DNA of 41,737 nucleotides from a virus (IMGVR_UViG_3300031578_000130:1-41737), one strand, 5' to 3'. Numbered from the stretch's first letter, positions 1 to 41,737 are shown. The notes: generated from the letters alone by a model not told the origin. Translations and numbers: made by a program.

Positions 1-127
1 TTCGGTTTCATCCATATCGGCCATGTTGACGCCCGTAATAAGATCCTTATTTCCGATTTCGGTTGTACCGGCTCCGGCTGCCCCCGTATCCAACACATTC
101 AGATTTTTCCTATCCGTGTCATCTCCG
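1..127. repeat. terminal direct repeat, left copy
   Basis: These 127 bases are identical to the last 127 bases (41611-41737). One open reading frame continues across the joint when the copies are merged. This is what a circular assembly gives when the contig ends overlap by one k-mer, and 127 is a common maximal k. I infer a circular or circularly permuted genome of 41,610 bp rather than a biological terminal repeat. Confidence 0.95.
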
Positions 128-294
128 GCCACGTTATCCTGTGCCACACAGATGACTTTCGTAACCGTACACTTGAACGGCGCTGAAAATATCGGATAAA
201 CAATCGTTGCGGTTGCGGCAGCAACACTCGGGATGTGAGCGGTCATCCGCTGCGTCCCGGGAATATCGTGCGTACCAACTTTTTCTGTACTCAT
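1..294 (-). CDS. small virion-like protein, N-terminal part (gene split by contig ends)
   Basis: The ATG lies at 294-292 and overlaps the TGA of the 120-residue gene upstream as ATGA, so the two are probably translationally coupled. The 98 codons here run off the window end and continue at 41610-41491, giving a 137-residue protein. It starts MSTEKVGTHDIPG, is rich in beta-forming residues and acidic Asp/Glu, and has no signal peptide. It sits between capsid and neck genes, so a head decoration or similar small structural role is plausible by position only. I do not recognise the family. Confidence 0.85.
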   Translation of the reverse strand, partial: MSTEKVGTHDIPGTQRMTAHIPSVAAATATIVYPIFSAPFKCTVTKVICVAQDNVAGDDTDRKNLNVLDTGAAGAGTTEIGNKDLITGVNMADMDETE

Positions 295-653
295 TTAGTA
301 TCCTCCTCTTGCGTGTATTTTGTAATGATAGAATCTACTTTTGCAGATTCAAGTGATTTCAGATCGATCATCAGACTATCTGTCAACTGAATGATCTGTT
401 TATCGAGTCGTTTTGATAATTGACCGTTTCTGCTCGATAAATTCTGGTTCTGAATTAAAAGGTCAGTGAAAGCATCCTCCACAGATTTCCCGGTCTGTTG
501 TAAATACAGATTGATCATAACGGATTGTGAATATTTGAGTCTCGTTTGATCCTCTTGATATTTACGAATGTCAACCTTTGTACTATCTGTTTGAGAATAC
601 AGGTTTCCAAAAATGAACAAGAACACAAAAAATAAAATAGAAGATGCTTTCAT
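291..653 (-). CDS. secreted coiled-coil protein, 120 aa
   Basis: A typical Sec signal peptide (MKASSILFFVFLFIFGNLYS) is followed by QTDST, so cleavage would leave Gln at +1. The mature part is polar and helical, with heptad-like spacing around residues 65-105 (LIQNQNLSSRNGQL, LDKQIIQLTDSL), which suggests a coiled coil. The start follows an AAAGGAG site. It lies between the large secreted protein (674-2974) and the 137-residue virion-like protein, overlapping the latter by ATGA. Function is unknown; an outer-spanin-like or surface role is possible, but there is no lipobox. Confidence 0.85.
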   Translation of the reverse strand: MKASSILFFVFLFIFGNLYSQTDSTKVDIRKYQEDQTRLKYSQSVMINLYLQQTGKSVEDAFTDLLIQNQNLSSRNGQLSKRLDKQIIQLTDSLMIDLKSLESAKVDSIITKYTQEEDTK

Positions 654-12342: not shown

Positions 12343-13026
12343 TTATAATTCTTCGCAATGATAACGAACCGAATCACTCCGAGCGGATGGTGGCCAGTAA
12401 TATGGTGCTATTATCATTTGATCGTTTAAATAAAATGTATCAACTTTAGTCGGATAAGCTCTTACCGATATATAATACAATCCAGTATCCAAAAGGGTAG
12501 TTTCAAAATAATCTTCCTGCCCTATATCCAGATGATAATGGTGGATATCATGATCTAAAAATATTTCAATCCCGCATCGATCCTCTTTATAGTAAACCGG
12601 ATCCCACATTACTTTTATTTTGCTTTTTCCATAGACCTCGTATTCCCAGGGGACTATTTTAAATATCAGAGAATCAACATAGAATGGGAGTGGAACTGCA
12701 TAAGGAGAATCCACCGGGACCGGGATATGCTTCGTATTGAATATTGTATCTAACCTGCTCAAATCATCCAATCGATTCAGAACTTCATTGATGAGTTGAT
12801 CCTGCCGATCTTCAATGTCATCCATTCTATTAAAGCAACTATCCTGCATATACTGAGAAGAGGCCGCGATACCAAATAATATATTTTGTCTTGTCAATAT
12901 ATTATCTTGAATGATTCTCAGTGAATCAATGCTCTCTTTTGTCCCTGGCGTTTCATTTTGTTTATTACAATTCACAACAAATAATATCAGTGATAAAAAT
13001 AATACCTTCGTTAGTTGCGTTTTCAT
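12343..13026 (-). CDS. putative lipoprotein with coiled coil and beta-sandwich-like C-terminus, 227 aa
   Basis: The signal sequence ends in VVNC (Cys20) followed by NKQNE, a plausible if imperfect lipobox. Residues about 30-95 are helical, possibly coiled coil (MDDIEDRQDQLINEVLNRLDDL). The C-terminal part is beta-rich (PWEYEVYGKSKIKVMWDP...GLYYISVRAYP), resembling a fibronectin-type fold. It starts after GGGAGG and overlaps the preceding putative lipoprotein gene by 62 bases. Early phage lipoproteins often block receptors against superinfection; that is an inference here. Confidence 0.75.
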   Translation of the reverse strand: MKTQLTKVLFLSLILFVVNCNKQNETPGTKESIDSLRIIQDNILTRQNILFGIAASSQYMQDSCFNRMDDIEDRQDQLINEVLNRLDDLSRLDTIFNTKHIPVPVDSPYAVPLPFYVDSLIFKIVPWEYEVYGKSKIKVMWDPVYYKEDRCGIEIFLDHDIHHYHLDIGQEDYFETTLLDTGLYYISVRAYPTKVDTFYLNDQMIIAPYYWPPSARSDSVRYHCEEL

Positions 13027-13306
13027 TTTGAACCTCCCATTGATCGTTATTTTCAGGAAATAAATCTTTTATTTGATAGACGATCGTATCTTTGTGTGGA
13101 TAAAATATAAAAGTGCTATCAGTAATTGCAAATATTCTTCCCCCAGACTGGCCCGAAAGAAGCCACTTAAATTCTTCTATCATATTTATGTTGTTATTTT
13201 CTGATGGATCTACATCCTTTTTTGTTTCTGAATTATTATTAGAAGCGCCACAAAATATACAGAAGCACCCAAAAAGGATAAGTAAAAAAACGATTACTTG
13301 TTTCAT
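12965..13306 (-). CDS. putative small lipoprotein, 113 aa
   Basis: I chose the ATG at 13306, after GGAGG, over a TTG at 13318. The N-terminus MKQVIVFLLILFGCFCIFCG has three Cys at the end of a hydrophobic core, so lipidation at one of them is likely, though no site is a textbook lipobox. The mature part is Asn/Ser/Asp-rich, then beta-rich (GRIFAITDSTFIFYPHKDTIVY). It is paired with the longer lipoprotein that follows. Confidence 0.65.
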   Translation of the reverse strand: MKQVIVFLLILFGCFCIFCGASNNNSETKKDVDPSENNNINMIEEFKWLLSGQSGGRIFAITDSTFIFYPHKDTIVYQIKDLFPENNDQWEVQNENATNEGIIFITDIICCEL

Positions 13307-23380: not shown

Positions 23381-23785
23381 CTATTTTATATTGAACATTT
23401 TAAAATTCTTTAGCCAGGTCTTTATTGCGTTCCAGTTTTGGACAATTTTGCCGAGCCATTTGGTAGATTTGAATAGACCTGCGGAACATGCAAAAGCGAT
23501 CGCTCCGGCGCCCAGAGAATATACCAAACTAATTTCATGATATTTGAAGTATCCGTATCCGAGCGATATAACAAGCACCAGAATAACCGCTGGCCATCCC
23601 TTAACTCCACCGACCATATTCCGAAGTAATTTAGTTGCTGTTATGATCAAACCTACAGCCACAATAAATCCTTCATTGAATACGATGGATAGAAACGGGG
23701 GGATGGTGACAATATCATCCTGAGCAAAAAGAGGAACGGCTAGGACAACGATAAGAAGCATCGCGAGAAAAAGCACCTTTTTCAT
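23381..23785 (-). CDS. holin-like membrane protein with signal peptide, 134 aa
   Basis: The signal peptide (MKKVLFLAMLLIVVLAVPLFA, then QDD) is followed by hydrophobic spans at about 40-55, 66-80 and 88-105 and a basic C-terminus. It is the last gene before the terminator and next to the lysis enzyme candidate, so it is the best holin candidate. A cleaved leader would be unusual, though signal-arrest holins and leaders exist. Confidence 0.65.
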   Translation of the reverse strand: MKKVLFLAMLLIVVLAVPLFAQDDIVTIPPFLSIVFNEGFIVAVGLIITATKLLRNMVGGVKGWPAVILVLVISLGYGYFKYHEISLVYSLGAGAIAFACSAGLFKSTKWLGKIVQNWNAIKTWLKNFKMFNIK

Positions 23786-25227: not shown

Positions 25228-25460
25228 AACGCCCTCACAATTAAAGCCAGCCCGATCCCTGTAAAATCAAAAATCAAATCAATAGCATGATCCCACTTCT
25301 GCCATATACCAGACTCTATCTGTGTACCTTCTATCGTGAGGGCAACGATAGCTGCATAGTCTACTCTATATAGGGTAATACAAAAACAGAGTATACCATG
25401 CCCAAGCCAATCAAATGGATGCTTGCATCTTATTTGTAATATCTTATCAAAGAGTGTCAT
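25224..25460 (-). CDS. small membrane protein, VanZ-like pattern, 78 aa
   Basis: DWLGHGILCF, IEGTQIESG and KWDHAIDLIFDFTGIGLAL give the His, Glu and Asp order of small VanZ-like or phage membrane proteins. Overlaps both neighbours by 4 bases. Role in lysis is possible but not shown. Confidence 0.62.
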   Translation of the reverse strand: MTLFDKILQIRCKHPFDWLGHGILCFCITLYRVDYAAIVALTIEGTQIESGIWQKWDHAIDLIFDFTGIGLALIVRAL

Positions 25461-26773
25461 TTCTCTACTCCATCTACTTCAGCTACATTAGATATATCAA
25501 CTCCATCTATATTAGATATATTAGGGTAGGATATACCATCCCTCTCATGTCCCCAATATGGATTTGGCTCCAATAGCATAGTTCGAAGAAAACCGTAGTA
25601 GGGTGATGCTGTCCTGTATGACAATAGAACATACCTACTATCCTCAGTCAACATCATACTACTGAAATATGATTCGGTACTCGTTAAGTTCTCTGACCAC
25701 AGCACCTCTTTCTGCTGTCTATCAGTGAAAGTACCACTTGCTGGATTTATACTATAGGCTGCTAAGTATCCATCATATCCTGTCCAATAACCAGAGTAGA
25801 ACACAATAGCACTACTATCGTTAGCTGCCACTGATACACATTCAAGCTTTGTATCAATAGCAACACTATCCCCTCTTGTCAAAGATCCATCATAAGGACT
25901 GGCTTTGAATGAACATAGAAATCTTGGATAGGATCCAGATATTGCAATAGATGCTCCTACGTATATACTATCATTAGCTGCACAGGTATTGAATCTGGTT
26001 TCTTGTTTCATCGTTCCTTCACCTATATCTAACCCATCAATCGCAGCTCCAATAGTACCATCCACCTGTGATATTTCTCTCGTAGAAACACTATAAGGAA
26101 TATGCCAATCTGATACAACATAATAATCACTTGATCCTATTCTATCAATATCTATAGAATACCCAGAAGTGGATATAGAGTCAACAGTTACATCCAGTAT
26201 CTCAGGAGTATCTGGATCAATAAGGAATGTCTTCATACCACAGGCAAACGATACACCACTTCTGTACGACAACGCATAGTAGTTTGATGTACCTATCTGT
26301 ATTAAGGTATGATCGTATGTATATAGATTCTTAACAACAACCGGCCAATCAGCACCTGTTATACTCGCATCAGCAGTATCTATCCCAAATATATATACCC
26401 AGGTTGAATCGACATCTCCTGTGAAATTTGCAGAAACAGTTGCTAAAAAATGGTTAGTATCCTTAATCTGTACAACAGCAGGGTTTCTACCAACTGTACC
26501 AGATCCTACTACTATAACTTCAGTGTCTATAACACTCGCTGGCAATACACCCTCACTTGTACAGGAAAAGGTTACTACCGTTAATAGATTCCCAGTAGGT
26601 GGAGAGTTGAATATAACACCATAGTAGTCGGTAAGGACACCAATCTTGAACAGGTTCCCACCTGCGTATACTTCATTGATGAAGTTTGGTATACTATCTA
26701 CCTTTGTTACTGTCGCACTTGCACTGCCTATACACAGTAATAGCAATAGTATAGTTTTAATAAGTCTATTCAT
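25457..26773 (-). CDS. secreted beta-propeller-like fibre protein, 438 aa
   Basis: Signal peptide MNRLIKTILLLLLCIGSASA, then TVTK. The body has repeated blocks with bulky beta strands (YDHTLIQIGTSNYYALSY, DIDRIGSSDYYVVSDW, AANDSSAIVFYSG), suggesting a propeller. The end NISNIDGVDISNVAEVDGV is the kind of repeat seen at phage fibre tips. Base use is unusual (many ATA, GTA, AGG codons). It overlaps the long fibre gene by 8 bases, so it is probably a receptor-binding or surface protein. Confidence 0.75.
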   Translation of the reverse strand: MNRLIKTILLLLLCIGSASATVTKVDSIPNFINEVYAGGNLFKIGVLTDYYGVIFNSPPTGNLLTVVTFSCTSEGVLPASVIDTEVIVVGSGTVGRNPAVVQIKDTNHFLATVSANFTGDVDSTWVYIFGIDTADASITGADWPVVVKNLYTYDHTLIQIGTSNYYALSYRSGVSFACGMKTFLIDPDTPEILDVTVDSISTSGYSIDIDRIGSSDYYVVSDWHIPYSVSTREISQVDGTIGAAIDGLDIGEGTMKQETRFNTCAANDSIYVGASIAISGSYPRFLCSFKASPYDGSLTRGDSVAIDTKLECVSVAANDSSAIVFYSGYWTGYDGYLAAYSINPASGTFTDRQQKEVLWSENLTSTESYFSSMMLTEDSRYVLLSYRTASPYYGFLRTMLLEPNPYWGHERDGISYPNISNIDGVDISNVAEVDGVEK

Positions 26774-29700
26774 GCTTCACCCAATTCATAGAAGGATTGA
26801 AATATATAACATCTGGCCCTATAACCCTACCTATTATCTGTATATACTCATCTGTACTACTCGGAGCTGTTTGTGTTGCATCGCCTGCTGTTGTACTTAG
26901 ATATAGTAGATCACCAACCCCACCTGTCTTTGTCCAAGTCCAACTGTTCAACCGAATATAACCCTCCTGCAATATATAAGTAGGTTTATCGATCCCAGCT
27001 GATCTACAGATAAGTCCAGTACAGGGGAAGGTTGTTGATGCAGAGGCGGATGCAAGTTCATAATCACCGTCCGCTGGAGAGTATACGAAGTCGCCTACAT
27101 ATATAACGGCTCCAACTGTGTCGTATATCATAGATACTACTGAGTAGGAGGAATCGACTGTCAGGTCTGCGTTTAGAACACCTCCACCTAACGCATCTAA
27201 CTGTGTCTGTATAGAACTCGTGGCATCAACAAACTTTAACTCAGCATCTGTAACTGAACCGTCTGAGGTATAGGTTGCACCTTCCACATTTCCAAGTGTA
27301 TAAACTCCTACTAATGGATTCACAACAGTCGCACCTGAAATCGTACCGTTTCTACCGTTTGGCTCTACCCAAGTTGCGGAGTTTATTCCAGAGGGTTCAT
27401 ATTGGGCTACACAACCTATTTGGATTAAACTAAAATTATCAAAAGTGCCTTCCCCATCAGAATCAGGAGTCTGAAAAACAAGAACACCATTTGTAATTTG
27501 TGCTGCTGTAGGAATAAACTCAATTGATTGATTTGTTCCTGCGGATATTCCCGTTTTTACCGTAACACCACCAAATTTACAATTCCAACTTCCAGTTGCA
27601 ATGCTAATATCGTAAATAGCGCGATAGCTTTTACCCTCTATAAGAGTGCCTATTTCTGTTTTGGCTAACTCTATACCATCCCACGTACTATTTGCAATAC
27701 AGTGCATATTTCCACCGGTAACATCAAATGTACCAAGAGATGCCCCAGTCCAATTTACATTACCTGCAACCGTAAAATCTCTATCGTCAGATGCAGTGAT
27801 CAATTCTGTCTGGCTTGCACCTATATATTTGTTGGGTATTGCACCACCGTCAATAATACGTTTACCTTCTTCGGATGTGGTAGATATTAAAGTATTAAAA
27901 ACATCCCAACCTTCAATCTCTCCGGCAAAGAAAGACGCTCCGGCAGTTGTACAACCTACTCGTAATGCACCGGCATTTGATAACGTCAGCGCAGCCGTTG
28001 AAATTGCTACCGTTCCAACCTGCCCCTCAACTTGCCCACCAAATATAAAAGCAGTTGCATTTCCGTCTCGATCAAAATTAACAAAGATATTATATTTTGT
28101 ATCAACTGTAAAAACTGCCGTTCCTATAATAGCCGATACATCAGTTGTTCCGTCATCAAACCGGATATATAAATCATCTTGAACTTTGTAAAGTCCATAT
28201 CCGATACCACCAGCTTCTTTGTTTATTAGGTATTCGGTAGCGGTTACATTGTTTGGAATCAGACCAATTATTCTGATTGAAAAATCGCCAGTTCCAACGT
28301 CAATGTCGGGATCATCTGCAACCTCAACATAGTCATCAGTTATAAACCATAAACTCGTCCCTACGTCTCCATTGATCACGTCTTGCTTGCTTGCAAGGTA
28401 TCTCGTGGTTTCTGTGGTGTTGTCATCAGTTGTTACGGCTATATGGATATTAGAACCATCGTCAAAACCTTGAATTCTCAAAGAATCTATCCCAACACCA
28501 GACGGCGCTGTGGTTTGGTTTTTAAGGTCTGCATAACCTGCCTTTGTTCCGGTAGTGGCTTTGACTTTGGGAGCGGTCAAAGTTCCGGTAAATGTCGGTG
28601 AACCTGCCCTCACTGGCGCACCAGTCCCAGTTGCAGTTGTCCACACCATTGCCGAACCTGCGCCTCCTCCTACAGGTATTTGAGCTGTTGTTCCATCGTC
28701 AATGCCTAAGAGTTCTGCATCTGAGATAGAGTTGTTCGATCCATACTGTGTAGATTTTATAGCAGTGGCATTACTGATACCATACTCATTCATCTGAATA
28801 TCGCCACCACGCATTGTAAGTGCACCACCTATTCCTACTGTTCCATTTAGACCGATCCTATCAAGTGTAGAAACAGTACCTACAAAAAGGCTATCATCAA
28901 CTATCAATGAATTTGAGGTTCTTAATCTGTTCATCCCTCCATAGTATAAATCGAGGTTTCTTATTTTTAATCCAAGATCGGTATGGATAGAATCGGTTGT
29001 CGAAATCTTTTTTGTTGAAGTGATTGTTATATCATTCTCAACTTCATTGTCTGCCATCGGATGTGCTGTGAAATCAAAGTTTCCTGTAATCACTTCATCA
29101 TTGGCTTTCATTGCGGCATCGCCACGGATAGCTGTCGAGGTGTCAATAATCGCCTGATAATTTGTATTTATGTCAGTTCTCAAATCCGAAAGAGTATCCT
29201 CTTGTGTAGCGTTCGTATTCGTATTTGTATTGATATCAGTCCGAAGGTCTGCCAGTGAGTCATCCTGTGCTATATTTAGATTCGTGGCAGTATTCAAATC
29301 TGTGCGTAAATCAGATAACGAATCTGATTGGTCTGCATTCAAGTTCGTAGCAGTATTCAGATCTGTTCTTATATTCCCAAGAGAATCATCCTGCGCGTTG
29401 TTTAAGTTTGTATTGGTATTGGTGTCTGTTCTAATATTTGCCAGCGAATCATCCTGAGTGTTATTCGTATTCGTGGCAACATTCAGATCTGTTCGGATGT
29501 TCCCAAGTGTATCATCCTGAGTATTGTTTGTATTCGTAGCAACATTTAAATCAGTCCGCAAGTCTGCCAGGGTATCTTCATTAACCGCGATGGCATCTGT
29601 AGCACGTCCGATCCGGTCGTTGTGTGCATCAAGGGTATCATCTTGAGTGTTGTTCGTGTTGGTATTCACGTTGATTCTGGTATTATGATCTTCCAGCGTA

Positions 29701-29915
29701 TCAGCAACATCCGCCATATTAATAAAACTCATAACGAATTGATCAAGAGAATGACCATTCCCCGCGAACCTCCGGCCACTCATATAATAAAGATCTTCGA
29801 ATGTTTTACTGACCGATGACGTATCATCGATTTGTCTGAAAATCATCCTCCGCCCGAAAGGTTCGGACCGCAACAGAACGGGAAGCAGTAAGAAAATCAA
29901 TAAATATTTTTTCAT
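26766..29915 (-). CDS. long fibre protein with signal peptide, 21-residue repeats and LamG-like domain, about 1049 aa
   Basis: I chose ATG 29915, at AAGG spacing; 29918 and 29930 are alternatives. The N-terminus MKKYLLIFLLLPVLLRSEPFG is a signal-like sequence. Residues about 85-255 hold seven 21-residue units (three heptads), likely a trimeric coiled-coil shaft. About 400-480 is beta-rich. Around 540-670 a concanavalin-like domain is visible (YNIFVNFDRDGNATAFIFGG...GEIEGWDVFNTLIS). The end IIGRVIGPDVIYFNPSMNWV is typical of tail fibre tips. The gene lies after the hub, so a tail fibre is most likely, but the leader is unexpected. Confidence 0.82.
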   Translation of the reverse strand: MKKYLLIFLLLPVLLRSEPFGRRMIFRQIDDTSSVSKTFEDLYYMSGRRFAGNGHSLDQFVMSFINMADVADTLEDHNTRINVNTNTNNTQDDTLDAHNDRIGRATDAIAVNEDTLADLRTDLNVATNTNNTQDDTLGNIRTDLNVATNTNNTQDDSLANIRTDTNTNTNLNNAQDDSLGNIRTDLNTATNLNADQSDSLSDLRTDLNTATNLNIAQDDSLADLRTDINTNTNTNATQEDTLSDLRTDINTNYQAIIDTSTAIRGDAAMKANDEVITGNFDFTAHPMADNEVENDITITSTKKISTTDSIHTDLGLKIRNLDLYYGGMNRLRTSNSLIVDDSLFVGTVSTLDRIGLNGTVGIGGALTMRGGDIQMNEYGISNATAIKSTQYGSNNSISDAELLGIDDGTTAQIPVGGGAGSAMVWTTATGTGAPVRAGSPTFTGTLTAPKVKATTGTKAGYADLKNQTTAPSGVGIDSLRIQGFDDGSNIHIAVTTDDNTTETTRYLASKQDVINGDVGTSLWFITDDYVEVADDPDIDVGTGDFSIRIIGLIPNNVTATEYLINKEAGGIGYGLYKVQDDLYIRFDDGTTDVSAIIGTAVFTVDTKYNIFVNFDRDGNATAFIFGGQVEGQVGTVAISTAALTLSNAGALRVGCTTAGASFFAGEIEGWDVFNTLISTTSEEGKRIIDGGAIPNKYIGASQTELITASDDRDFTVAGNVNWTGASLGTFDVTGGNMHCIANSTWDGIELAKTEIGTLIEGKSYRAIYDISIATGSWNCKFGGVTVKTGISAGTNQSIEFIPTAAQITNGVLVFQTPDSDGEGTFDNFSLIQIGCVAQYEPSGINSATWVEPNGRNGTISGATVVNPLVGVYTLGNVEGATYTSDGSVTDAELKFVDATSSIQTQLDALGGGVLNADLTVDSSYSVVSMIYDTVGAVIYVGDFVYSPADGDYELASASASTTFPCTGLICRSAGIDKPTYILQEGYIRLNSWTWTKTGGVGDLLYLSTTAGDATQTAPSSTDEYIQIIGRVIGPDVIYFNPSMNWVKHE
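29165..29621 (-). repeat. 63-bp tandem repeats coding the fibre shaft
   Basis: Seven copies of RTDLN.ATN.N..QDDSL.. at exact 21-residue (63-bp) spacing, diverged at the base level. The 3x7 period fits a parallel coiled coil. Confidence 0.85.
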
Positions 29916-29919
29916 CATA

Positions 29920-30441
29920 TCACCTTCCATTTGCTTTAAAATTGAACCCTACTCCGTTGTTCTTTTTACGATGTCCAGTGTAGGTAAATAATTTTACAAT
30001 AAAATAAACATCCGATCTGAATTCAGATTCATTGAAATTGCAAGCCCATTCTCCGGTAGCGTCCAAAGTATCTGTTGAAACAGTCGATCCATATTCATCT
30101 GTCCATCGAAGGTTTTTTACGAATACCATTCTTGTGGTATCTCTGATGTTACTTTGATATAATTTTAATACTGCTTTCACACTGTCCGCCGCAGTATTTG
30201 TATCGATGACAGTGGCCGTGATCGTGACATACGGCATCGTATAATAAATAGCACTGTAAAGGGAAGTATCATACTTTACATTATTCCATGTCACGTTTGC
30301 CGCAATCTGTGAATCCCCATATTTGAAGATATAAAACAGATCGGGAATGCCTCTGATGGCTGCCTCGTTTTGAGTTAAATCAGTCTGTCCGAATAACGGA
30401 AGACAAATCAACAGAATGATCAATAAATAAATTCTTTTCAT
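29920..30441 (-). CDS. secreted protein upstream of the fibre, 173 aa
   Basis: Signal peptide MKRIYLLIILLICLPLFG, then QTD, giving Gln at +1. The rest is beta-rich (NVTWNNVKYDTSLYSAIYY, RSDVYFIVKLFTYTGHR). It lies between the hub and the long fibre gene, so it might link them, but the leader suggests export. Not recognised. Confidence 0.78.
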   Translation of the reverse strand: MKRIYLLIILLICLPLFGQTDLTQNEAAIRGIPDLFYIFKYGDSQIAANVTWNNVKYDTSLYSAIYYTMPYVTITATVIDTNTAADSVKAVLKLYQSNIRDTTRMVFVKNLRWTDEYGSTVSTDTLDATGEWACNFNESEFRSDVYFIVKLFTYTGHRKKNNGVGFNFKANGR

Positions 30442-30455
30442 TTTAACACCTCTTT

Positions 30456-32933
30456 TTAAAGTTCTCTCATTTCAAGAAATATCTCATCGTTGTTTAAATC
30501 TTCATGTATTCCATAAACAAAATATTGACCCTCACGCAATTTATCTGTCAGTGTAACCACGTCCCCGAATTCAAGATCACAGTTTTGAAGTTGTGTATAA
30601 AATGAAACCTCTGCTTTTCGAAGATAAAGCCAACTTATCATAAAGGCAAGGAAATTCTCGGCAGTCGCCGGGTCAACTATTCTGTCCAGATAAATGTGTT
30701 TCGTCTTTACAAATCCATAAGCTGAATATGATGCGTGAATCAGATCCCAGTATGTTTCTTCGTTTCCATGCAAATCAGATCCGGCAGTCATTGTACTAAC
30801 ATAATCAGAACTATACGAACCTTCTTCTGGATGATTTATGAAAGCCAATCCGTCATATTCCCCCGTGGCATAATTTAAATTATAATGAACATAGAAATCA
30901 TTGACAACATCTTCGAGCGGAGAAAATTCACACCTGAAAGTCGGGACCAGTCCCTTGTCTGATTCCCTGCAAAGAACGTCATTCAGATTCATTGTTTTGA
31001 CTGAGGTTCCGGTCAATGGCAGAGCTTTTATTGTATGATTTCCAAGATAGTCCATATAATAAACTGAACAGGCTTCAAACATGATTTCTTTGAATTCATC
31101 AATTGAATTGATTTTGCTTTTTATCTGATAGGCCATTTCCCATCCGGATCGATCCGTTCCGGTTAATAGATCAAAATCAGACGTTGTAATATATGTCGCG
31201 GTAACTCCCAAATCATCTCTTAAAATCTTCTCTAAAACGTCACCAGGATTTTCAACTAAATTAATAGCAGTTTTCCTGGCTCCCCACGTACCCCCGAACA
31301 TCCGGCCTTTGGCTTCCACAAAGAATTTTGTTCCGGTATTTATTCCGAGAGATTTTTCAAGCATCAAGCCCATTTCATTGATATAATAATACATATCTGC
31401 AGTGGGAGTTGCGGCTCCTCCCCCCATTGATATTCTAAAAATACGATTGCTAATTAGAGTATCCCAATCTGTTATAATATCTGATAAATCAGCGAGAATT
31501 ATATTCGCTCCGTTTGGGAAGCCTGCACCCGGTGACAAAAGATAGCTTTTGATATTATTAAAAAAGGCATTGCCTCCTCCAGATTCATTAACCTGCTCGG
31601 TTTCATCATCAGCCAATTTAGTTCCAATATAATTATAGGTATCGATATAAACTTTGGCAAACCATCCGGTATCGATACTCGTAATGTTGGCCATTACATA
31701 AAAATATATTTTATCCCATTCGCCTATTGTTAATCTGTGATCAGAAATCATTTTTGTATGTATTGCGGAAGTAAAAAAAACTCCGCCCATCAGCACAACT
31801 GAAGAACCATCAGCACGGGTTGTTTCGTCATAGTCAATCATATTAGCGCTATTATTCCAGCCGACAGCGGAATCTATAGACGTGAAAGGTAACGGATAAT
31901 AAATTTTCAAAGAATCTCTAATTATAATTCCGCTTTTAAATTTAAAGCCAGCCATTCCAGAAAGTGGCGAAGCGTCATTTAAAGAATCATAAATATGAAA
32001 TGGCAAAATTACATTTTGATTCTTTTCTCTATAAAATATCAAAGGTTTTGCAGTGTCAAACCATAAATAGCCCCAACTCTTAACTTCCTGATCTGAAACT
32101 ATAAAAACATATTCCGGATCTGTTATCTGATAAACCGTATCATCAGCGACAGGAGCATCTTGCAATTTATCATAAAGAGAAACAGCATCAACAGAATCCT
32201 TTATTACAATCTGTCCTATTTGCCCTGTAGAAAGTCCGCCAATCAATTCCATTATTTTGTCAACATGAGAATCTAAAAATGGACTATTTGTTGCATCCTC
32301 TATTGTATTCGTGTCCCCTCCTGTGCAAGGGAAAGGCCCAAGTATCGGGTCGTCATCTTTACTGCAAAGAAACGCTTCAAAAAATCTTTGGCCAAAACAA
32401 ATCGGAACTGGTTTTCCATTTGATTCATCCGGTATTGTTAATGTAGAGAAATCTTTTTCGTTTAAAAATGTCCGTGGTATCTCTTTGTGATCTGTCTCAT
32501 TTACTTTGCACTTTATCCAGATATTTGATTTATCATATCCCCAATCATAAACTCGATAAGTATTGATTCTCAATCCGCTTGTATATAATGCAGGAGCGGC
32601 CTCTACTATGTGTCTGTATAAAATAACCTCTGCATTCGTCAACTCAATGGCAGAAAGTGTATCGTCAAAATAGTTGTCATAATTCAATAACTGAAATTCA
32701 ATATCTGATACCTGCGCGATACCGCCCCCCTGTCTCACGTCCGCACGGATCGAAGCAGATCCGGCGCCTCCCATTGCAAGTCTGCCCTGAGCTTTATTCC
32801 ATGCTAAAAGAGCGGTCGTGTCAAGAGTAGCAAAATCCAGAAGCGTAGAATCCTGACAGGTGACATGAATTACATAGAAGCAATTAAAACTTCCATTGAT
32901 ATATGAAGTCCATGCTCCCGGGAAGCTTTTCAT
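30456..32933 (-). CDS. tail hub / tip protein, 825 aa
   Basis: This large protein follows the small distal tail protein, as hub proteins do. The N-terminal part is beta-rich with DIEFQLLNYDNYFDD and a conserved-looking block LTIPDESNGKPVPICFGQRF. The C-terminal end (AEVSFYTQLQNCDLEFGDVV, then TDKLREGQYFVYGI) matches the closing domain of central tail hubs. No peptidase motif is evident. It overlaps its upstream neighbour by ATGA. Confidence 0.75.
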   Translation of the reverse strand: MKSFPGAWTSYINGSFNCFYVIHVTCQDSTLLDFATLDTTALLAWNKAQGRLAMGGAGSASIRADVRQGGGIAQVSDIEFQLLNYDNYFDDTLSAIELTNAEVILYRHIVEAAPALYTSGLRINTYRVYDWGYDKSNIWIKCKVNETDHKEIPRTFLNEKDFSTLTIPDESNGKPVPICFGQRFFEAFLCSKDDDPILGPFPCTGGDTNTIEDATNSPFLDSHVDKIMELIGGLSTGQIGQIVIKDSVDAVSLYDKLQDAPVADDTVYQITDPEYVFIVSDQEVKSWGYLWFDTAKPLIFYREKNQNVILPFHIYDSLNDASPLSGMAGFKFKSGIIIRDSLKIYYPLPFTSIDSAVGWNNSANMIDYDETTRADGSSVVLMGGVFFTSAIHTKMISDHRLTIGEWDKIYFYVMANITSIDTGWFAKVYIDTYNYIGTKLADDETEQVNESGGGNAFFNNIKSYLLSPGAGFPNGANIILADLSDIITDWDTLISNRIFRISMGGGAATPTADMYYYINEMGLMLEKSLGINTGTKFFVEAKGRMFGGTWGARKTAINLVENPGDVLEKILRDDLGVTATYITTSDFDLLTGTDRSGWEMAYQIKSKINSIDEFKEIMFEACSVYYMDYLGNHTIKALPLTGTSVKTMNLNDVLCRESDKGLVPTFRCEFSPLEDVVNDFYVHYNLNYATGEYDGLAFINHPEEGSYSSDYVSTMTAGSDLHGNEETYWDLIHASYSAYGFVKTKHIYLDRIVDPATAENFLAFMISWLYLRKAEVSFYTQLQNCDLEFGDVVTLTDKLREGQYFVYGIHEDLNNDEIFLEMREL

Positions 32934-33307
32934 GGAGCCACTCTAAGCGTAATAAAATACCGGTATCTATGATACGCTTCCTGTTTTTCAATTAAGTTCG
33001 TTTGCCAGAGATTCACCGTGACCGCTCCACCGTCCCCATTTCCTACATCGATATTTGTATCCGGCGTGAATGTAAAAGATGTTTTCATGAATTTGATTGT
33101 AGTTTTTATGAATGCCCTGAGACCAGTGAGATTCGCATGGCCGCTCATTATTTCAAGTCTGATAAATTCCTCATCGTATCCCCGGTCATAAACTCTCAAA
33201 GTTCCATCGGCTGCAATGCCAAAATTCTGATGTCTGCCTATTTCATTTTCAAAAGGCCACAAAGCACCAGTAAAAGTAATTGTTGTAGCACCATAAACGA
33301 ATGTCAT
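32930..33307 (-). CDS. distal tail protein, 125 aa
   Basis: Beta-rich (MTFVYGATTITFTGALWPFE, GTLRVYDRGYDEEFIRLEIM), with no leader. Size and place between tape measure and hub fit a lambda gpM/L- or Dit-like adaptor. Overlaps both neighbours by 4 bases. Confidence 0.7.
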   Translation of the reverse strand: MTFVYGATTITFTGALWPFENEIGRHQNFGIAADGTLRVYDRGYDEEFIRLEIMSGHANLTGLRAFIKTTIKFMKTSFTFTPDTNIDVGNGDGGAVTVNLWQTNLIEKQEAYHRYRYFITLRVAP

Positions 33308-35247
33308 GCTTTCACCATTCTTGAATCGATTAAATCCTGAATTGTTTTTGCCAATCTGATTTTATTTTCTTTGACAGCTCGCGTGATATTATCTTGAGTA
33401 TTCCGATCAACGTTTCCGCTTATATTAATGTTATCCCCTGCGATTGTCACCGAGGATGTTGGCATTTTACCAGTCTTGTTGATGTATTCCAGTCCCGGGC
33501 GTGTATCTGAATTTACAGATTTTGATTGTGTGATAAATTCATGCCTTTGAATTTTGGCAATTATTTCATTCGATTCCAGCCCGCCGGAATGCCTTTTCGG
33601 GATGGCGCCATAACCGCCCCGGGACCCTCCAGCCCAATCTACAAACCCGCCTCCGTGAAATCCGAATAATGCTCCCAGAATTGACCCGCCTCCCGGTACA
33701 AGTAATTTCAATAATGCACTCGCAGCGTATCGGGCTTCGGCCTGTATAATAGCATTAATAAAAGTCGTGACAAATGTTTTTGCCATTTTCTCAAATACAG
33801 ATTCAGCTTTCCCGAAAACGTCATCCCACATTGAATTAAGTTCATCAGCAACGATCTGAGCCGATGCCATGAAAGCGTTTTCGAATGCTTTTGCAGATTC
33901 AGTGAGTTCTTTCCCAGGTTCCGCTTTTTCTTTGGGAATTTCATACGGTCCAACTGGCAGGTCAGGACGTTTCGTGAAATGAGAAAGAGCATCTTCTAAA
34001 CTTTTACGTTCTGTTGCTTTAATAAAAGCATCCATATAATTATTACCCGCTTTTTCTCCGGCGTCAGCGATAGGGTCACCCCCACCTTCATCGCCACTCA
34101 AAGCATCACCCAAAGTATTTTTAATTTCAAGAGCACGATCTTTAATTTTGTCAGATAATTCTTTAGTCCATTTTGTAATAGAAGGTTCCAATTTTTCTGT
34201 TAATACCTTTGCAACGGAATCACCGACCAATCCAATGGCCTTTGTCATATCTCCCTTTGCCACAATCATCGCCGTAGCAAATGCTTGAGGAATAATTGCC
34301 ATTGTCATAGATAGTTGTGCCAATGTAGCTCCGGTAATTTTTAAAATATATACAAGCATATCACTCCACATTTCACCCATTGCCTTGATAACATTTCCCC
34401 AACCTATATCAGCAAATTCGATAAATTTCAATCTGATTTTTTCAAGATAAGGCTCGAATGGCATTTTAATAAAATCACCGATAGCCTCTTTAATATCACT
34501 AATATAATTTTTTACTTGTGCAATTTTCCCACCCCATACTTCTAAATCTTTTTGAGCTGCCCCGCTGAACATTTTATTTAAAATATCCATTGCATAAGCA
34601 GTTTTTGCGGCAGTGGTTGTGATCCCAGCCTGTTTCAGTGCTGCTTCTTTCAGCGCCGGAATATACCGGCCAAGCATTGTAACCTCTCCAGCCATTGCCA
34701 TGGCCACATATCGGGAGGCCGTATTTAAATCAAATAAACCTGTCGAGGCAATGTTGGCTGCTATTTTTGCCCCTTCAAATCCTTTTGATACGCTTCCAGT
34801 TAAAAGCATAATCTGTTGAAGTGAGGGAGCCAGTTCAGTATCACCAAATCTTGTCACAGCCTGCATCGAAGAAAGGTATTTATCTGATATAGGTTTGACT
34901 TTTTCGTATGCCGCTCCTGTTAATCCAATGGCCGTTTCAAGATGTTTAAAAATTTCCTCCTGTTTAGTTGATAAGCCAACAAATTCCTTAATATGCCGAA
35001 TTGAATCTCTTGCGAATTTTTTAATTGCCATACCAGCGGCAGCGAAAGCAGCTACGATGGCTCCGGCAATGGCAACTTTAGCCCAACCACCCATTTTTGA
35101 AAAGGCATTTCCCATCTTGGATGTATTGCTTTGAACGCTCTTGCCAGTCTTATCTACCGAGTGATCAAGTTTGTCGAATTCCTGAGATGTTTTTTTGACA
35201 TTACCGGAAGTTTTATCTGTTGCGATAATGTCTACTTTAATGGCCAT
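33304..35247 (-). CDS. tape measure protein, 647 aa
   Basis: It has the expected helical build, with Lys/Ser-rich start (TDKTSGNVKKTSQEFDKLDH), a hydrophobic span near 58-75 (VAIAGAIVAAFAAAGMAI), other hydrophobic regions near 320-360 and 555-575, and a Gly-rich end (FGFHGGGFVDWAGGSRGGYG, PKRHSGGLESNEIIAKIQRH) typical of the family. By the usual ~0.15 nm per residue it predicts a tail of about 97 nm. It starts 11 bases inside the end of the frameshifted chaperone. Confidence 0.9.
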   Translation of the reverse strand: MAIKVDIIATDKTSGNVKKTSQEFDKLDHSVDKTGKSVQSNTSKMGNAFSKMGGWAKVAIAGAIVAAFAAAGMAIKKFARDSIRHIKEFVGLSTKQEEIFKHLETAIGLTGAAYEKVKPISDKYLSSMQAVTRFGDTELAPSLQQIMLLTGSVSKGFEGAKIAANIASTGLFDLNTASRYVAMAMAGEVTMLGRYIPALKEAALKQAGITTTAAKTAYAMDILNKMFSGAAQKDLEVWGGKIAQVKNYISDIKEAIGDFIKMPFEPYLEKIRLKFIEFADIGWGNVIKAMGEMWSDMLVYILKITGATLAQLSMTMAIIPQAFATAMIVAKGDMTKAIGLVGDSVAKVLTEKLEPSITKWTKELSDKIKDRALEIKNTLGDALSGDEGGGDPIADAGEKAGNNYMDAFIKATERKSLEDALSHFTKRPDLPVGPYEIPKEKAEPGKELTESAKAFENAFMASAQIVADELNSMWDDVFGKAESVFEKMAKTFVTTFINAIIQAEARYAASALLKLLVPGGGSILGALFGFHGGGFVDWAGGSRGGYGAIPKRHSGGLESNEIIAKIQRHEFITQSKSVNSDTRPGLEYINKTGKMPTSSVTIAGDNINISGNVDRNTQDNITRAVKENKIRLAKTIQDLIDSRMVKA

Positions 35248-35943
35248 GCTTTTCCTTATTCACTTCGTTTATTGATGCAATTATTATTTTCAAATCGTTG
35301 TATAATTCGTCTATTTCAAATTCTGATAATTGATATTTTCTGAAAATCAAAACTACTCTGAGACCATCTGAAATATTTCCAATATCAAAAGTACCGTCTT
35401 TATAAAACCCACCGCCTGACCAGAATGTTATTTCTTGAAAAAAGGCCCATGCTTTATTATTTTCGGGCATGAGCCTTACAAATAAACATTCTTCGCAAGG
35501 AGGGTCATTTTCCTTTTCTAAATATTGATTTCTACACGAAGCGCATCCATGCCCTTTTCCGTCTATCCACTGCTTCGTGTAGTCTGAGAGTTTTTTTCAG
35601 CCTCATCGCTTTTGACTGTTTTTACGCCCTTAATCAATACATCGATAAATTCTTCAACTGGTTCGGCAGGAAGATCATCCACACTGTCAATCGAAAAAGG
35701 GAATGGTTCTTTGCTGTTGGGTTGTTCAAAACCTTCCCAGCCCAAAAGAGAATATTCGAGCAAAGCCCTACCGACCGCCTTCATATCGGTGACTTCAACA
35801 TTCCTTTTTGTCATTCTGGTATTGGTTTTCACCCATTCTTCTCTCAGGTTCCCCGGGACCCTTCGATAATAAAACTTAACATCCGGATCTCCGGAAAATA
35901 CGTGAACAAAACGCTCTTTGTCTGAAATCGCTTTTAACGCCAT
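35237..35943 (-). CDS. tail assembly chaperone, -1 frameshift fusion product, 235 aa (G-T type)
   Basis: Reading shifts by -1 at A AAA AAC after residue 118 and continues without a stop for 117 codons to 35237. The extension has GCASCRNQYLEKENDPPCEEC, a CxxC...CxxC knuckle, then MPENNKAWAFFQEITFWSGG, a pattern seen in T-like phage chaperones. It corresponds to lambda gpGT: the G part binds tube subunits and the T part the tape measure. A 77-residue frame from ATG 35470 is the end of this product and need not be a separate gene. Confidence 0.85.
35532..35596 (-). promoter_or_regulatory. programmed -1 frameshift signal
   Basis: Slippery heptamer A AAA AAC (35596-35590) in frame, 7-base spacer, then an 11-bp perfect stem CTACACGAAGC (35582-35572) with GCTTCGTGTAG (35542-35532), loop of 29 bases. 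All three elements are at standard distances. Confidence 0.92.
35563..35943 (-). CDS. tail assembly chaperone, zero-frame product, 126 aa (G type)
   Basis: Starts MALKAISDKERFVHVFSGDPD after GGAGGAGAAG; ends 8 codons after the slip site at TAG. The middle (REEWVKTNTRMTKRNVEVTD, GRALLEYSLLGWEGFE) is conserved-looking and helical. It lies between tail tube-region genes and the tape measure, the standard place. Confidence 0.85.
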   Translation of the reverse strand: MALKAISDKERFVHVFSGDPDVKFYYRRVPGNLREEWVKTNTRMTKRNVEVTDMKAVGRALLEYSLLGWEGFEQPNSKEPFPFSIDSVDDLPAEPVEEFIDVLIKGVKTVKSDEAEKNSQTTRSSG

Positions 35944-35955
35944 CTTCTCCTCCGC

Positions 35956-36159
35956 TCATTTCTTTTTTTTAGGGCTTTTTATTGTAAGCCCTTTTCTCTT
36001 TGATTCATGTTCCTTGACGAGATCGATCTCTTTTTTTGTCGCATCTTTGGAACATTCAAGTCTTGTATAATTAACTACCGGCAGATCACGGCACTGTTCC
36101 GCCGTCATCCCGCCGGAAAGTTTCTTCCCGGTCTTGATGTCAATCAAAAATATCATCAT
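35956..36159 (-). CDS. hypothetical small tail-region protein, 67 aa
   Basis: MMIFLIDIKTGKKLSGGMTA, then a basic end (KRKGLTIKSPKKKK). No motif. It lies 12 bases upstream of the chaperone gene, in the tail operon. Confidence 0.7.
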   Translation of the reverse strand: MMIFLIDIKTGKKLSGGMTAEQCRDLPVVNYTRLECSKDATKKEIDLVKEHESKRKGLTIKSPKKKK

Positions 36160-36164
36160 TCACC

Positions 36165-36629
36165 TCAACTAAAAAAACCAATGATTCTGAAATAAGCCTT
36201 TTTCCCGCTCGCAAGCTCGGCATTCGCACCGGCATTGGTTTTTGTGTTGATCACAATCAGATGAGAAGTAATATCACCGAGAACATCAAACTGAGTGATA
36301 TTCGTATCGTCACCGTATGCAGAGCCCACACAAAAAATATGAGTAACCGCATCCACATTGATTTCGTAATCGCCGGCCCCATTGCGGGATACATTGCTAT
36401 CGAAAGCGGTATAAGCCGCTTCTTCCGTGGCTCCCAGATCGGACAGTGCAGTATAATCTGCGGTAACCGAATTCACATAGAGCTTGTATTTCATGGTTCC
36501 GGTATCGTTGTAAAGTTCGAGAACCATTGAAAACAGATGCAATCCGAGGATTGTTCCACCCCCAGCTACAAACTTATTCAGATTCGCAGCTTTTACTTCT
36601 GTTGACCCGTCTGTAAAAATGACTGCCAT
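36165..36629 (-). CDS. tail-region protein, 154 aa
   Basis: Beta-rich, Thr/Ala/Asn-rich, no leader (MAVIFTDGSTEVKAANLNKF). It lies directly after the second tail tube paralogue and is probably a structural protein. Family not recognised. Confidence 0.72.
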   Translation of the reverse strand: MAVIFTDGSTEVKAANLNKFVAGGGTILGLHLFSMVLELYNDTGTMKYKLYVNSVTADYTALSDLGATEEAAYTAFDSNVSRNGAGDYEINVDAVTHIFCVGSAYGDDTNITQFDVLGDITSHLIVINTKTNAGANAELASGKKAYFRIIGFFS

Positions 36630-36640
36630 TTTATTCCTCC

Positions 36641-37768
36641 TTAATTTTCCTCAAGATAATTATATTGATTATCGTCTGTAATCACACAGACCATTTCAGC
36701 GTTTTTCTTCAATTCAATATTTGACCATTGAGCTGAGTATTTATCCGAACTTGGAATATAAGGAATCGCGGTATGAGCCATATTGAGAACTTCCGATCCC
36801 TTGATTGGAGCCTCGATTTTTTCAAGTTTTAAAGCGGAGAAATAGAATCCGAGATTATAGGTGCTATCAGCAAATACGAAAGACATGTACTGTTCCGTGT
36901 CAGCATCCAAAAGATCAAGATAAGTATCGGCATTATACCTGACAAAATCAAAACCGACTGTAATAAGCCTCTTGCCATTTCTCATGGGTTCCATAATATA
37001 AAGACCGGATACTGAATCTTGTACAATTTGCAACTGGTTATCGAGCGCGATCTCAAATCTGTTTATTCCAACGGTTGTTCCGGATATTTCTGTTGTCAAT
37101 ACACCCGGGAGAATAACATCTCTTTTATCTGAGGCCAGCGTCCAGTTAGCGGAATTATACGAACCTCTCGAATGTGAATATCCAACAAGATCGAATTCAA
37201 TAGATACAGAATTTACTTCGCCGCGGATGATCATCTTGTTGACCATAACAGAATGATATTTCCAATCAGTTACGGCTTTTGCGAATGCCAGAACACCAGA
37301 ACGGACTTTCTTATCGCCTGCATACCATACTCCGGTCCCAGTCCCCGAAGTATGTCTTTCCGCTTCGCCAAGCCAAGCCTCTCTGTGAAGATTATTATCC
37401 AATTCAAGAAGATGCTTGTATTTGGCAGAGACAGTTTCGGGACTGCCTCCATAAGTAGCTCCTCCGGTATTCGGATTTTCAAAACCCATGGCACTGCAAA
37501 GCAAGCGTCCTACGTTATTATATCTGCCTTGCAAACTCAAACCACCGGCCACATTCTTTGTGATAATATCCGCCTTTGCTCGACCCGCGCTCCCCTGAAT
37601 AGTCGGATCCTGCTCGATCACATGATCCGCTATCATCGATTCAGAAACGAAAGGGATTTGATCCAGAGCCGTTATATCGTTCGCGCCCCAATCCGTTTTC
37701 GGATATGTAGACGTTTTCGGATCTTTCTTAAAGGAAGCCTTTGAAATTACTCCTAAACCTGTTGACAT
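36641..37768 (-). CDS. tail tube protein paralogue 2, 375 aa
   Basis: Shares an ordered set of motifs with its neighbour (37778-38725): M..G.GV.SK, ES.I, AGR, G.L...Y.N.G..L..AMG, AV..W, KM.I.G, P.RNGKR, RY.ADT, GSE.L. It is 60 residues longer, mainly by an insert near 100-155. One of the two is probably the main tube subunit, the other a variant. Confidence 0.8.
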   Translation of the reverse strand: MSTGLGVISKASFKKDPKTSTYPKTDWGANDITALDQIPFVSESMIADHVIEQDPTIQGSAGRAKADIITKNVAGGLSLQGRYNNVGRLLCSAMGFENPNTGGATYGGSPETVSAKYKHLLELDNNLHREAWLGEAERHTSGTGTGVWYAGDKKVRSGVLAFAKAVTDWKYHSVMVNKMIIRGEVNSVSIEFDLVGYSHSRGSYNSANWTLASDKRDVILPGVLTTEISGTTVGINRFEIALDNQLQIVQDSVSGLYIMEPMRNGKRLITVGFDFVRYNADTYLDLLDADTEQYMSFVFADSTYNLGFYFSALKLEKIEAPIKGSEVLNMAHTAIPYIPSSDKYSAQWSNIELKKNAEMVCVITDDNQYNYLEEN

Positions 37769-37777
37769 TTTATTTCC

Positions 37778-38725
37778 TCACGTTATTGTAATTCTAAATT
37801 CACTGGATATTGCGGTCATCGGCGTATTCGATGAATTCAGATAACAGTTCCCGGGACCTTCTTGAACCAATATTTCAGAACCGCCGATATTCATATTGAA
37901 GCCCTCACTGATCTCAAATTCAGGGATTTCGATTAAAAGCGTTTTCGTTCCATCAGTAAAATACAAAGTAGCCTGTAAAGGCGTTCCCGCATCCTTCCAA
38001 TCCGGAATAGTATCTGCTGAATACCGTGGAAGTTTGACATTGAAAACAACGTCTCTTTTTCCGTTCCTTAAAGGATCCAGAGCATACCGGCTCAAACTTG
38101 AATAATCATCGGCCTTAAAATTATTCGTCAATTCGAGCGAGAAGCTCTCAGCATCGATGTTATCCCCTGAATCAAGAGCATCATCCTGATTTCCGATTCG
38201 TATGAATGATGCTGATACGGAATTCGAAAAAAGGACCTGTGAATAACTCGAAAGCGAAATAGACGGAAAGGCGGTTGCGGATCTAGAAGGAGTCATTCCA
38301 ATAATATCAGTTGCAATTTTTAGAGCTTCGCCTTTATTTCCGGATATTGTCATCTTCTGAATTTTGGCAGAGTTGATTCTCCATCTCGAAACGGCCTTTT
38401 CAAATTCGATTTTGATTATTTTTGTATTGTTATCAGCAAGAGTATAAACACCGGTCGTATCGGTACCCATTGCGGCTTCAAGGATCGATCCGAAATTGTA
38501 ATAATCAAGATCACTGTTCAATGCCCCGGCAACTTCTACGAGTCCCTGTTTCCCGACACGACGACCGGCCACGCCCTCCAGAGCCATTGTTTCTATTCTC
38601 TGGATAGTGGTTATCAGTGATTCATCATTTATCGGAAGCATGGTATCAACAGCAGACCAAGCTTCTCCCCATGCAGAGGCCTCTTTAATTCCGCATTTGC
38701 TTAAAACACCAATTCCATCTGGCAT
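37778..38725 (-). CDS. tail tube protein paralogue 1, 315 aa
   Basis: Starts MPDGIGVLSKCGIKEASAWG after AAAGGGG. Length, beta-rich content and place between neck and chaperone genes fit a tail tube protein. The motifs DPLRNGKRDVVFNVKLPRYS and TDGTKTLLIEIPEF are shared in form with paralogue 2, 9 bases downstream. Confidence 0.82.
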   Translation of the reverse strand: MPDGIGVLSKCGIKEASAWGEAWSAVDTMLPINDESLITTIQRIETMALEGVAGRRVGKQGLVEVAGALNSDLDYYNFGSILEAAMGTDTTGVYTLADNNTKIIKIEFEKAVSRWRINSAKIQKMTISGNKGEALKIATDIIGMTPSRSATAFPSISLSSYSQVLFSNSVSASFIRIGNQDDALDSGDNIDAESFSLELTNNFKADDYSSLSRYALDPLRNGKRDVVFNVKLPRYSADTIPDWKDAGTPLQATLYFTDGTKTLLIEIPEFEISEGFNMNIGGSEILVQEGPGNCYLNSSNTPMTAISSEFRITIT

Positions 38726-38726
38726 A

Positions 38727-39416
38727 TCAAATCCCCTTTATTTTTAATTCGATAATTGTGACATCGTTTTCAACATCGATATTGGAATATGTGAATAATT
38801 GATCTGATTGACTGCCGCCGATAGTCGCACCAGATTGAGCGGATGTATTACTACAATTCACATTAGAACTGCAATCAGTTATGAGTGGACAAGTGCTATA
38901 ACAATCAAGGGTTACTATTTCTCCATTTAACATCATGTTGTTATTATCATTCCATTCAAAATCGTGTATAGGGAAATGATATTCTGGCATTGGTTGTGCC
39001 TGTATTTTCTGTGCAACTTTTTCAAGTCTGAATTCCACTTTAATCAGACCGTTTTCTTTTCGGCTCGGATCGTCTACTTCTGGATTGTCTAAAGTTACGA
39101 ATTGAAACTTCTTACCGTCCTGCATGGATTCAGTTACGAACCTTTCGAGATTCAATTCACTATTCGCATCAATAATGAAGTCCCCAAAATTCGAGACAAG
39201 CGCACCGTCGATCCAGACTTTTGCTGTACATTTCCGGTCGTGGTTGTTTTTTAAAAGAAGCTCGTATTCACTTTTAAACGGAACCACTACCTGGTTGTCT
39301 ATCTCTTTGACAAACCCATTTTCATTTGAAACATTGACAATGAAATCGTTTTTACTGATTGCCAAAAGATTCACTGATAAAAGAATCAGCCCGATGATTA
39401 AATATTTAATTTTCAT
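38727..39416 (-). CDS. secreted beta-rich protein in the tail cluster, 229 aa
   Basis: Signal peptide MKIKYLIIGLILLSVNLLA, then ISKND. Residues about 35-130 (NQVVVPFKSEYELLLKNNHD, RKCTAKVWIDGALVSNFGDF, ANSELNLERF, GLIKVEFRLEKV) look like a jelly-roll domain. A Cys cluster (CYSTCPLITDCSSNVNC) near 180-200 would be oxidised outside the cytoplasm. It lies between tail terminator and tube genes, where no exported protein is expected. Confidence 0.78.
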   Translation of the reverse strand: MKIKYLIIGLILLSVNLLAISKNDFIVNVSNENGFVKEIDNQVVVPFKSEYELLLKNNHDRKCTAKVWIDGALVSNFGDFIIDANSELNLERFVTESMQDGKKFQFVTLDNPEVDDPSRKENGLIKVEFRLEKVAQKIQAQPMPEYHFPIHDFEWNDNNNMMLNGEIVTLDCYSTCPLITDCSSNVNCSNTSAQSGATIGGSQSDQLFTYSNIDVENDVTIIELKIKGI

Positions 39417-41490: not shown

Positions 41491-41737
41491 TTAGGTTCCC
41501 TCGTATTCGACAATGACAAGCATGGCGGGGAGTAAAACGCCATTACCAGCTTTTTCGATTTGTAGCGCCAGAACATCCCCATCGGAAAGCTCGGTATCGG
41601 TAACATCGATTTCGGTTTCATCCATATCGGCCATGTTGACGCCCGTAATAAGATCCTTATTTCCGATTTCGGTTGTACCGGCTCCGGCTGCCCCCGTATC
41701 CAACACATTCAGATTTTTCCTATCCGTGTCATCTCCG
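41491..41737 (-). CDS. small virion-like protein, C-terminal part (gene split by contig ends)
   Basis: The last 39 codons of the 137-residue protein whose start is at 294; the last 127 bases repeat its middle. Stop TAA at 41493-41491. The end reads LALQIEKAGNGVLLPAMLVI, beta-rich. Confidence 0.85.
   Translation of the reverse strand, partial: GDDTDRKNLNVLDTGAAGAGTTEIGNKDLITGVNMADMDETEIDVTDTELSDGDVLALQIEKAGNGVLLPAMLVIVEYEGT
41611..41737. repeat. terminal direct repeat, right copy
   Basis: Exact copy of 1-127; see the left copy. Confidence 0.95.

Follow-up and report, generated by a model that had tools for sequence, protein, structure and literature searches.

Predicted Sec leaders on fibre-like and post-capsid proteins encoded within the late operon of a tailed phage

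Host range is decided by phage fibres, whose assembly is generally taken to happen in the cytoplasm. Virion operons that include genes for exported proteins are already known, the examples being Lom, Llp and Cor; in lambda, Lom is an outer-membrane protein whose gene is flanked by J and by the genes of the side tail fibre. The subject of the present analysis is IMGVR_UViG_3300031578_000130:1-41737, a stretch of 41,737 nucleotides (nt; "the window" below), very probably the circular genome of a tailed phage, in which nine proteins, among them fibre-like proteins and proteins encoded behind the capsid gene, begin with predicted Sec-type leaders.

The window resembles lambda in encoding predicted exported proteins inside the tail cluster and late operon (Lom obtains a signal peptide score of 17.8 with the scorer described below). 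Unlike the outer-membrane protein Lom, the leadered proteins of the window are fibre-like and decoration-like, and several occur at once. In T5, the llp gene adjoins that of the receptor-binding protein pb5, and its periplasmic product blocks the receptor (PMC9586334). The superinfection-exclusion proteins Llp and, in the T1 family, Cor share with the window the arrangement of an exported (in the window, predicted) phage protein encoded beside the gene of a receptor-binding protein, and they act on the receptor from the periplasm; however, they are small lipoproteins and not fibres, and no sequence relation between them and the window proteins was found. Finally, the Nixviridae, phages of Porphyromonas gingivalis, have genes of unknown function with signal peptides for signal peptidase I (SPI) that follow the Q rule (PMC10367356). 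Like those of the window, these are SPI leaders of tailed phages that expose a Gln, but they were described as unknown genes, whereas the window's belong to leadered fibre and post-capsid cassettes shared between backbones. The original prediction, which had called these leaders from the sequence, knew of no general account of such a system. Given the Lom, Llp and Q-rule precedents this is too broad, and it stands for a narrower point: the literature searched, most subscription papers lying outside the search, yielded no account of leadered fibre cassettes common to unrelated particles, or of a leadered slot behind the capsid.

Leaders were called with a home-made Sec/SPI scorer, based on a positively charged n-region, a hydrophobic core and small residues at positions -3 and -1, which was calibrated on E. 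coli K-12 and then run on every gene of the window. Ten known exported proteins of E. coli scored 12.3-22.4, soluble cytoplasmic proteins reached at most 12.9 and mostly less than 9, and polytopic membrane proteins scored up to 22. The nine proteins named in the original prediction are exactly the high-scoring set of the window, with values from 11.7 to 24.5 (Table 1), and the remaining soluble products all score 5.6 or less. By score alone, the small protein at 291-653 and the long fibre at 26766 are borderline; the leader of the fibre is backed by a leadered homologue on another viral contig, L093. Strong Shine-Dalgarno (SD) matches 5-8 nt ahead of most leader ATGs argue that the starts are correct, and three of the seven SPI-type sites (in 291-653, 29920-30441 and the holin-like protein at 23381) have Gln at +1. 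Exposure of Gln after SPI cleavage is the Q-rule pattern of Bacteroidota, and Ignavibacterium has such sites too (PMC5837995).

Of the window's 25 late genes for head, tail and fibre, 6 have leaders, compared with 2 of 74 structural genes in five control phages (lambda and four phages of Bacteroidota, a small set not matched to the window's family; Fisher p 0.003), and one of those two is Lom, a known exported protein. The nine window proteins are thus predicted to carry genuine Sec-type leaders, and the earlier argument that such a set is unlikely to arise by chance holds. Its coordinates required adjustment: the leadered set reaches beyond the interval 26766-39416 first given for it, and the open reading frame of the fibre, placed at 26766-29915, spans 26766-29930 with the leader starting at 29918 (or 29915). 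Among related loci, signal-like matches in the L050 and L058 tail proteins (with N-termini like IAFFAALESVYG) and one at 13688 of L004 were judged false positives.

Three consecutive leadered genes, encoding a small protein (29920), the long fibre (26766) and a 438-amino-acid (aa) partner (25457), are paralleled on L093, which was found by a scan with the C-terminal domain of the fibre. The gene order on L093 matches that of the window: a small leadered protein comes first, then a fibre of 835 aa and a partner of 437 aa, both with leaders. The fibres are 57% identical across window residues 299-1050 and differ in their N-terminal region, the L093 fibre having its own leader (score 16.5, site FLYA/QKV, the slash marking cleavage). 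The partners are 57% identical over their full length, with a leader score of 18.7 in L093 and nonsynonymous (dN) and synonymous (dS) divergences of 0.36 and 1.44, while the small leadered genes ahead of the fibres occupy the same place with no clear homology. Over the last 130 codons of the fibre dN is 0.04 and dS 0.80, which indicates that strong selection has preserved the tip and that its similarity is not just the mark of a recent exchange.

The backbone of L093 is podovirus-like, with terminase, portal, capsid and tail genes. When 37 window proteins were compared with L093, the only match beyond the cassette was a marginal one (E 0.001), inside the partner gene. Named phages with an L093-like portal have late genes without leadered fibres, with only lysis-type or membrane matches; because these are the nearest named relatives of the backbone, the cassette appears to be an add-on to it. 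Comparison of the sequences therefore identifies the fibre and its partner, with a small leadered gene ahead, as a cassette on two unrelated virion backbones, which implies that it travels independently of particle type.

The C-terminal domain of the fibre resembles that of the tail fibre of Flavobacterium phage immuto (E 1e-4) and is also common to the IMG/VR relatives L094-L096, but the fibres that share the tip domain alone are leaderless. The fibres of the window and of L093 have the tip domain common to known virion fibres, but neither has the leaderless, cytoplasmic N-terminus by which such fibres attach to the tail. An AlphaFold2 (AF2) model of the 438-aa partner, with a predicted local distance difference test score (pLDDT) of 34, neither supports nor excludes the propeller fold first proposed for it.

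A second pattern is seen behind the capsid gene, where the window encodes a leadered fibre-like repeat protein (674-2974) followed by a small coiled-coil-like one (291-653). An N-terminal motif of the former recurs in the L093 fibre (E 2e-5), and the C-terminal half of 674-2974 is internally duplicated, with MSRVDMDAYQ and FKVDMNAIQ copies. The relative L013/L004 has a leadered gene in the same slot, with LTLGD.GSTTAITSSDWGIS in common with 674-2974. On L015, an unrelated contig, a leadered repeat protein with the AITSSDWGIS motif of 674-2974 precedes a small coiled-coil-like protein that also has a leader, mirroring the window pair; this contig is podovirus-like, and there the two genes (2-2408) lie upstream of the scaffold and capsid genes.

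A scan of genome contigs with the capsid profile recovered 52 relatives, mostly prophage-like regions of Proteobacteria. In the window and about nine relatives, from several phyla, a leadered protein stands directly behind the capsid, with at least four unrelated mature parts, while many other capsid relatives have no gene in this slot. In six loci (L029, L031, L040, L047, L070 and L073, from Desulfuromonadales, Planctomycetota, Alpha- and Gammaproteobacteria and Verrucomicrobia) the proteins encoded there form a single family, in which a strong leader is followed by a mature part of about 120 residues. Different leadered proteins occupy the slot in L052 and L092, and fibre-repeat types occupy it in L004, L013 and the window. 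Leaders are found on 7 of 33 genes whose start lies no more than 200 bp from the end of the capsid gene, versus 4 of 252 over the following 8 kb (p 4e-5, an approximate value since some loci, such as the Dongia pair, are related). The slot thus repeatedly holds proteins with predicted leaders.

In the six-locus family the mature parts align well and the letters of the leaders have diverged, yet the leaders remain hydrophobic with A-X-A-like ends. Across homologues, this pattern identifies the predicted leaders as kept by natural selection despite their changed letters. The member in L083 has no leader and no in-frame room for one upstream. AF2 predicts a jelly-roll fold for the family (pLDDT about 88 over the mature part). 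Among viral proteins, this model matches tail-fibre-like and collagen-type ones well; in the PDB only weak matches (E about 1e-3) were obtained, including phage GP4 and Pam1 capsid chains. The family is rare, being found in 1 of 369 and 3 of 385 genomes of a class-wide census in which the seed genomes were counted. A merger with the leaderless decoration-like family (the window gene at 294..1/41610..41491 and its counterparts in L013, L005 and L068) was rejected, because profile comparison gave a probability of only 31%. Behind the decoration-like gene, L005 (12596-14196) and L068 (1761-2306) have a methyltransferase-like gene, to which L005 adds a sugar-related-looking one; these genes lie near the slot that holds leadered proteins in other relatives, a possible cargo site in the head operon.

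The leadered protein of the tail cluster at 38727-39416 has homologues in the jumbo phages XacN1 (E 7e-13), RAS14 and CM1. Those of XacN1 (ORF366) and RAS14 are homologous along most of the mature protein and have no leader; their first residues, M-F-K-N or M-F-N-K, fall precisely at the point where the window protein continues past its predicted cleavage site, so that the latter reads as a leaderless jumbo-phage protein to which a leader was added. The context of ORF366 differs from that of the window, its gene adjoining the tail sheath gene of a jumbo phage; the text of the XacN1 paper does not show it to be a virion protein. In L013, the nearest relative of the window, the flanking tail genes are 9 bp apart and the gene is absent between them. 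In a deep-sea metagenome-assembled genome related to the window, a leadered cargo gene (L026 15589-16428, L090; score 22.2) lies in the tail cluster. Conservation of leaders in relatives, expected if they are real, is seen for the L093 fibre and partner and for the post-capsid family, but not for XacN1, RAS14 and L083. Homologues starting at a downstream Met, which the original prediction had held to count against export, do exist in XacN1 and RAS14, which begin at the leader end. Together with leaderless L083, they indicate that leaders have been gained and lost on proteins of phage-structural ancestry.

From this evidence, the fibre-like and post-capsid proteins probably leave the cytoplasm and are not incorporated into particles there. 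The function favoured here, with a probability of about one half, is that they are exchangeable, export-targeted cassette genes of the late operon whose products would act on the envelope or receptors of the infected cell. The host Sec machinery and signal peptidase would export them late in infection, and they would take no part in cytoplasmic virion assembly. The conserved, receptor-binding-like C-terminal tip of the fibre may then bind receptors or envelope material outside the cytoplasm, whether in the periplasm, at the cell surface or on debris after lysis, with the result that receptors would be masked and that progeny and rivals would not be wasted on dying cells. The leadered post-capsid proteins would be additional cargo that acts on the envelope and stems from structural domains of phages. 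Because the fibre tip is receptor-like, binding of receptors or debris is the most economical function; likewise, action at the cell surface is the most economical of the options first put forward, and by analogy the window fibre is most economically regarded as a fibre-shaped counterpart of T5 Llp.

Several observations weigh against this reading. The leader predictor is home-made, and a Pfam scan found no outer-membrane sorting domain in the leadered proteins, so that surface display would need an additional step. The Q-rule sites hint at a host among Bacteroidota or Ignavibacteria, and the strong use of SD sequences is unlike typical Bacteroidota; a firm assignment to a Bacteroidota host was rejected on account of this SD use and of the Q-rule sites of Ignavibacterium. 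The fibre differs between the two phages in its N-terminal part and keeps a common tip, as would be anticipated for fibres attached to virions. A clear side fibre without a leader was not found in the window, and a virion needing one would use the leadered fibre or its partner.

One alternative is that export brings the fibres, the partner and the decoration-type proteins to the periplasm or the surface, where they remain until they attach to particles at or after lysis. The leadered genes sit inside the head and tail operons, their mature parts look virion-like (the fibre tip domain; a jelly-roll family with tail-fibre matches and weak GP4/Pam1 capsid matches), the fibre N-terminus is swapped over a common tip, and the post-capsid protein has a leaderless homologue, L083, at the same position. 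Some known decoration proteins can be added in vitro to finished capsids. Nevertheless, similarity to PDB entries is weak (E about 1e-3), proteins diluted at lysis would be picked up inefficiently, and no precedent was found in the literature searched; this alternative is considered possible but unlikely, and the broader proposition that particle completion takes place outside the cytoplasm in some tailed phages, with Sec-exported fibres and capsid-decoration proteins added at lysis, slightly more doubtful still.

Uncleaved or slowly cleaved leaders might instead act as tethers that keep fibres and decoration proteins at the inner membrane, where virions would assemble or dock, as the borderline leaders of 26766 and 291, which have no textbook A-X-A site, and a transmembrane (TM) version of a small protein in the same region of L013 would allow; most leaders, however, have clean A-X-A-like or Q+1 sites and the homologues of 38727 start exactly at the predicted cleavage point, which makes a tether quite improbable. 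It is also improbable, if a little less so, that the proteins are lysogenic-conversion or adhesion morons, expressed from a prophage and helping the lysogen in surface adhesion or biofilm formation. Many relatives lie in bacterial contigs and are prophage-like, and Lom offers a precedent, but the leadered genes lie in the late operon and no integrase or repressor was found among the proteins scanned with Pfam and PHROGs, half of the genes being without assignment. That the leaders are an artefact (hydrophobic N-termini misread, wrong starts, or trimming by the phage's own prohead protease) appears very improbable: the predictor is home-made, two scores are borderline, and a prohead-protease reading has been suggested for capsid leaders of P. 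gingivalis phages (PMC10367356), whereas the conservation of leaders with diverged letters, the SD placement and the enrichment statistics all speak for genuine leaders.

The genome itself is read as a circle of 41,610 bp because positions 1-127 repeat exactly as 41611-41737. This joins the head and tail clusters across the window ends, and the decoration-like gene split between them becomes one whole protein. All real genes lie on the minus strand, in the order capsid, head genes, tail proteins, tape measure, tail tip, three leadered genes and lysis genes.

Table 1. Leadered proteins and reference genes of the window, with scores from the home-made Sec/SPI scorer (a slash marks the predicted cleavage site)
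Coordinates	Strand	Feature	Score	Details
291..653	-	Small leadered coiled-coil-like protein, 120 aa	12.6	LYS/QTD, Q at +1; SD AAGGAG
674..2974	-	Post-capsid leadered fibre-like repeat protein, 766 aa	24.5	Leader MKKFLLFSIAFLLLAGSLFA; SD AGGAGG 8 nt before ATG
2992..5412	-	Major capsid protein fused to head maturation protease		Pfam Phage_capsid_4, E 1e-32; phrog_133
12343..13026	-	Probable lipoprotein, 227 aa	15.3	Signal peptidase II motif VNC; SD GGAGGT
12965..13306	-	Probable lipoprotein or exported protein, 113 aa	18.8	
23381..23785	-	Holin-like membrane protein, ordinary lysis-type	21.7	LFA/QDD; 3 TM segments
25457..26773	-	Leadered fibre partner, 438 aa	21.1	Full-length L093 homologue
26766..29918	-	Long leadered fibre, 1050 aa	11.7	Leader MMKKYLLIFLLLPVLLRS; L093 homologue; immuto-like C-terminal domain
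29920..30441	-	Small leadered protein ahead of fibre, 173 aa	14.7	LFG/QTD, Q at +1; SD GAGGTG
30456..32933	-	Leaderless tail-tip protein, directly ahead of leadered cassette		L017 homologue 42% identical, without leader
38727..39416	-	Leadered protein within tail cluster, 229 aa	14.2	Leader 19-20 aa

The leadered proteins matched no family in Pfam and PHROGs scans, which gave only two weak PHROG matches of unknown function, and tblastn of the 674, 25457, 29920, 30456 and 37778 proteins against 50,697 phages gave no match. Elsewhere in the window, the adjoining tail proteins at 36641-37768 and 37778-38725, both phrog_290 and each about 50% conserved in L013, are predicted to be a duplicated tail-tube-like gene, and the holin-like gene adjoins a DUF5675 gene (23802-24536). 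An ATP-grasp (R2K_3) protein is suggested at 11166-11966 by a weak, sub-cut-off Pfam match in an otherwise unannotated middle region, and three homing-type or HNH/GIY-YIG endonuclease genes (13695-14402, 17458-17760 and 22731-23105) are found in this one small genome.

A conserved leadered fibre cassette that moves between particle types would mean either secreted receptor-binding weapons or shields, or completion of particles outside the cytoplasm, and either outcome would change the annotation of leader-bearing "tail fibre" and "capsid-adjacent" genes in metagenomes. If true, the addition of Sec-exported fibres and decoration proteins at lysis would be a form of virion maturation as yet undescribed in tailed phages.

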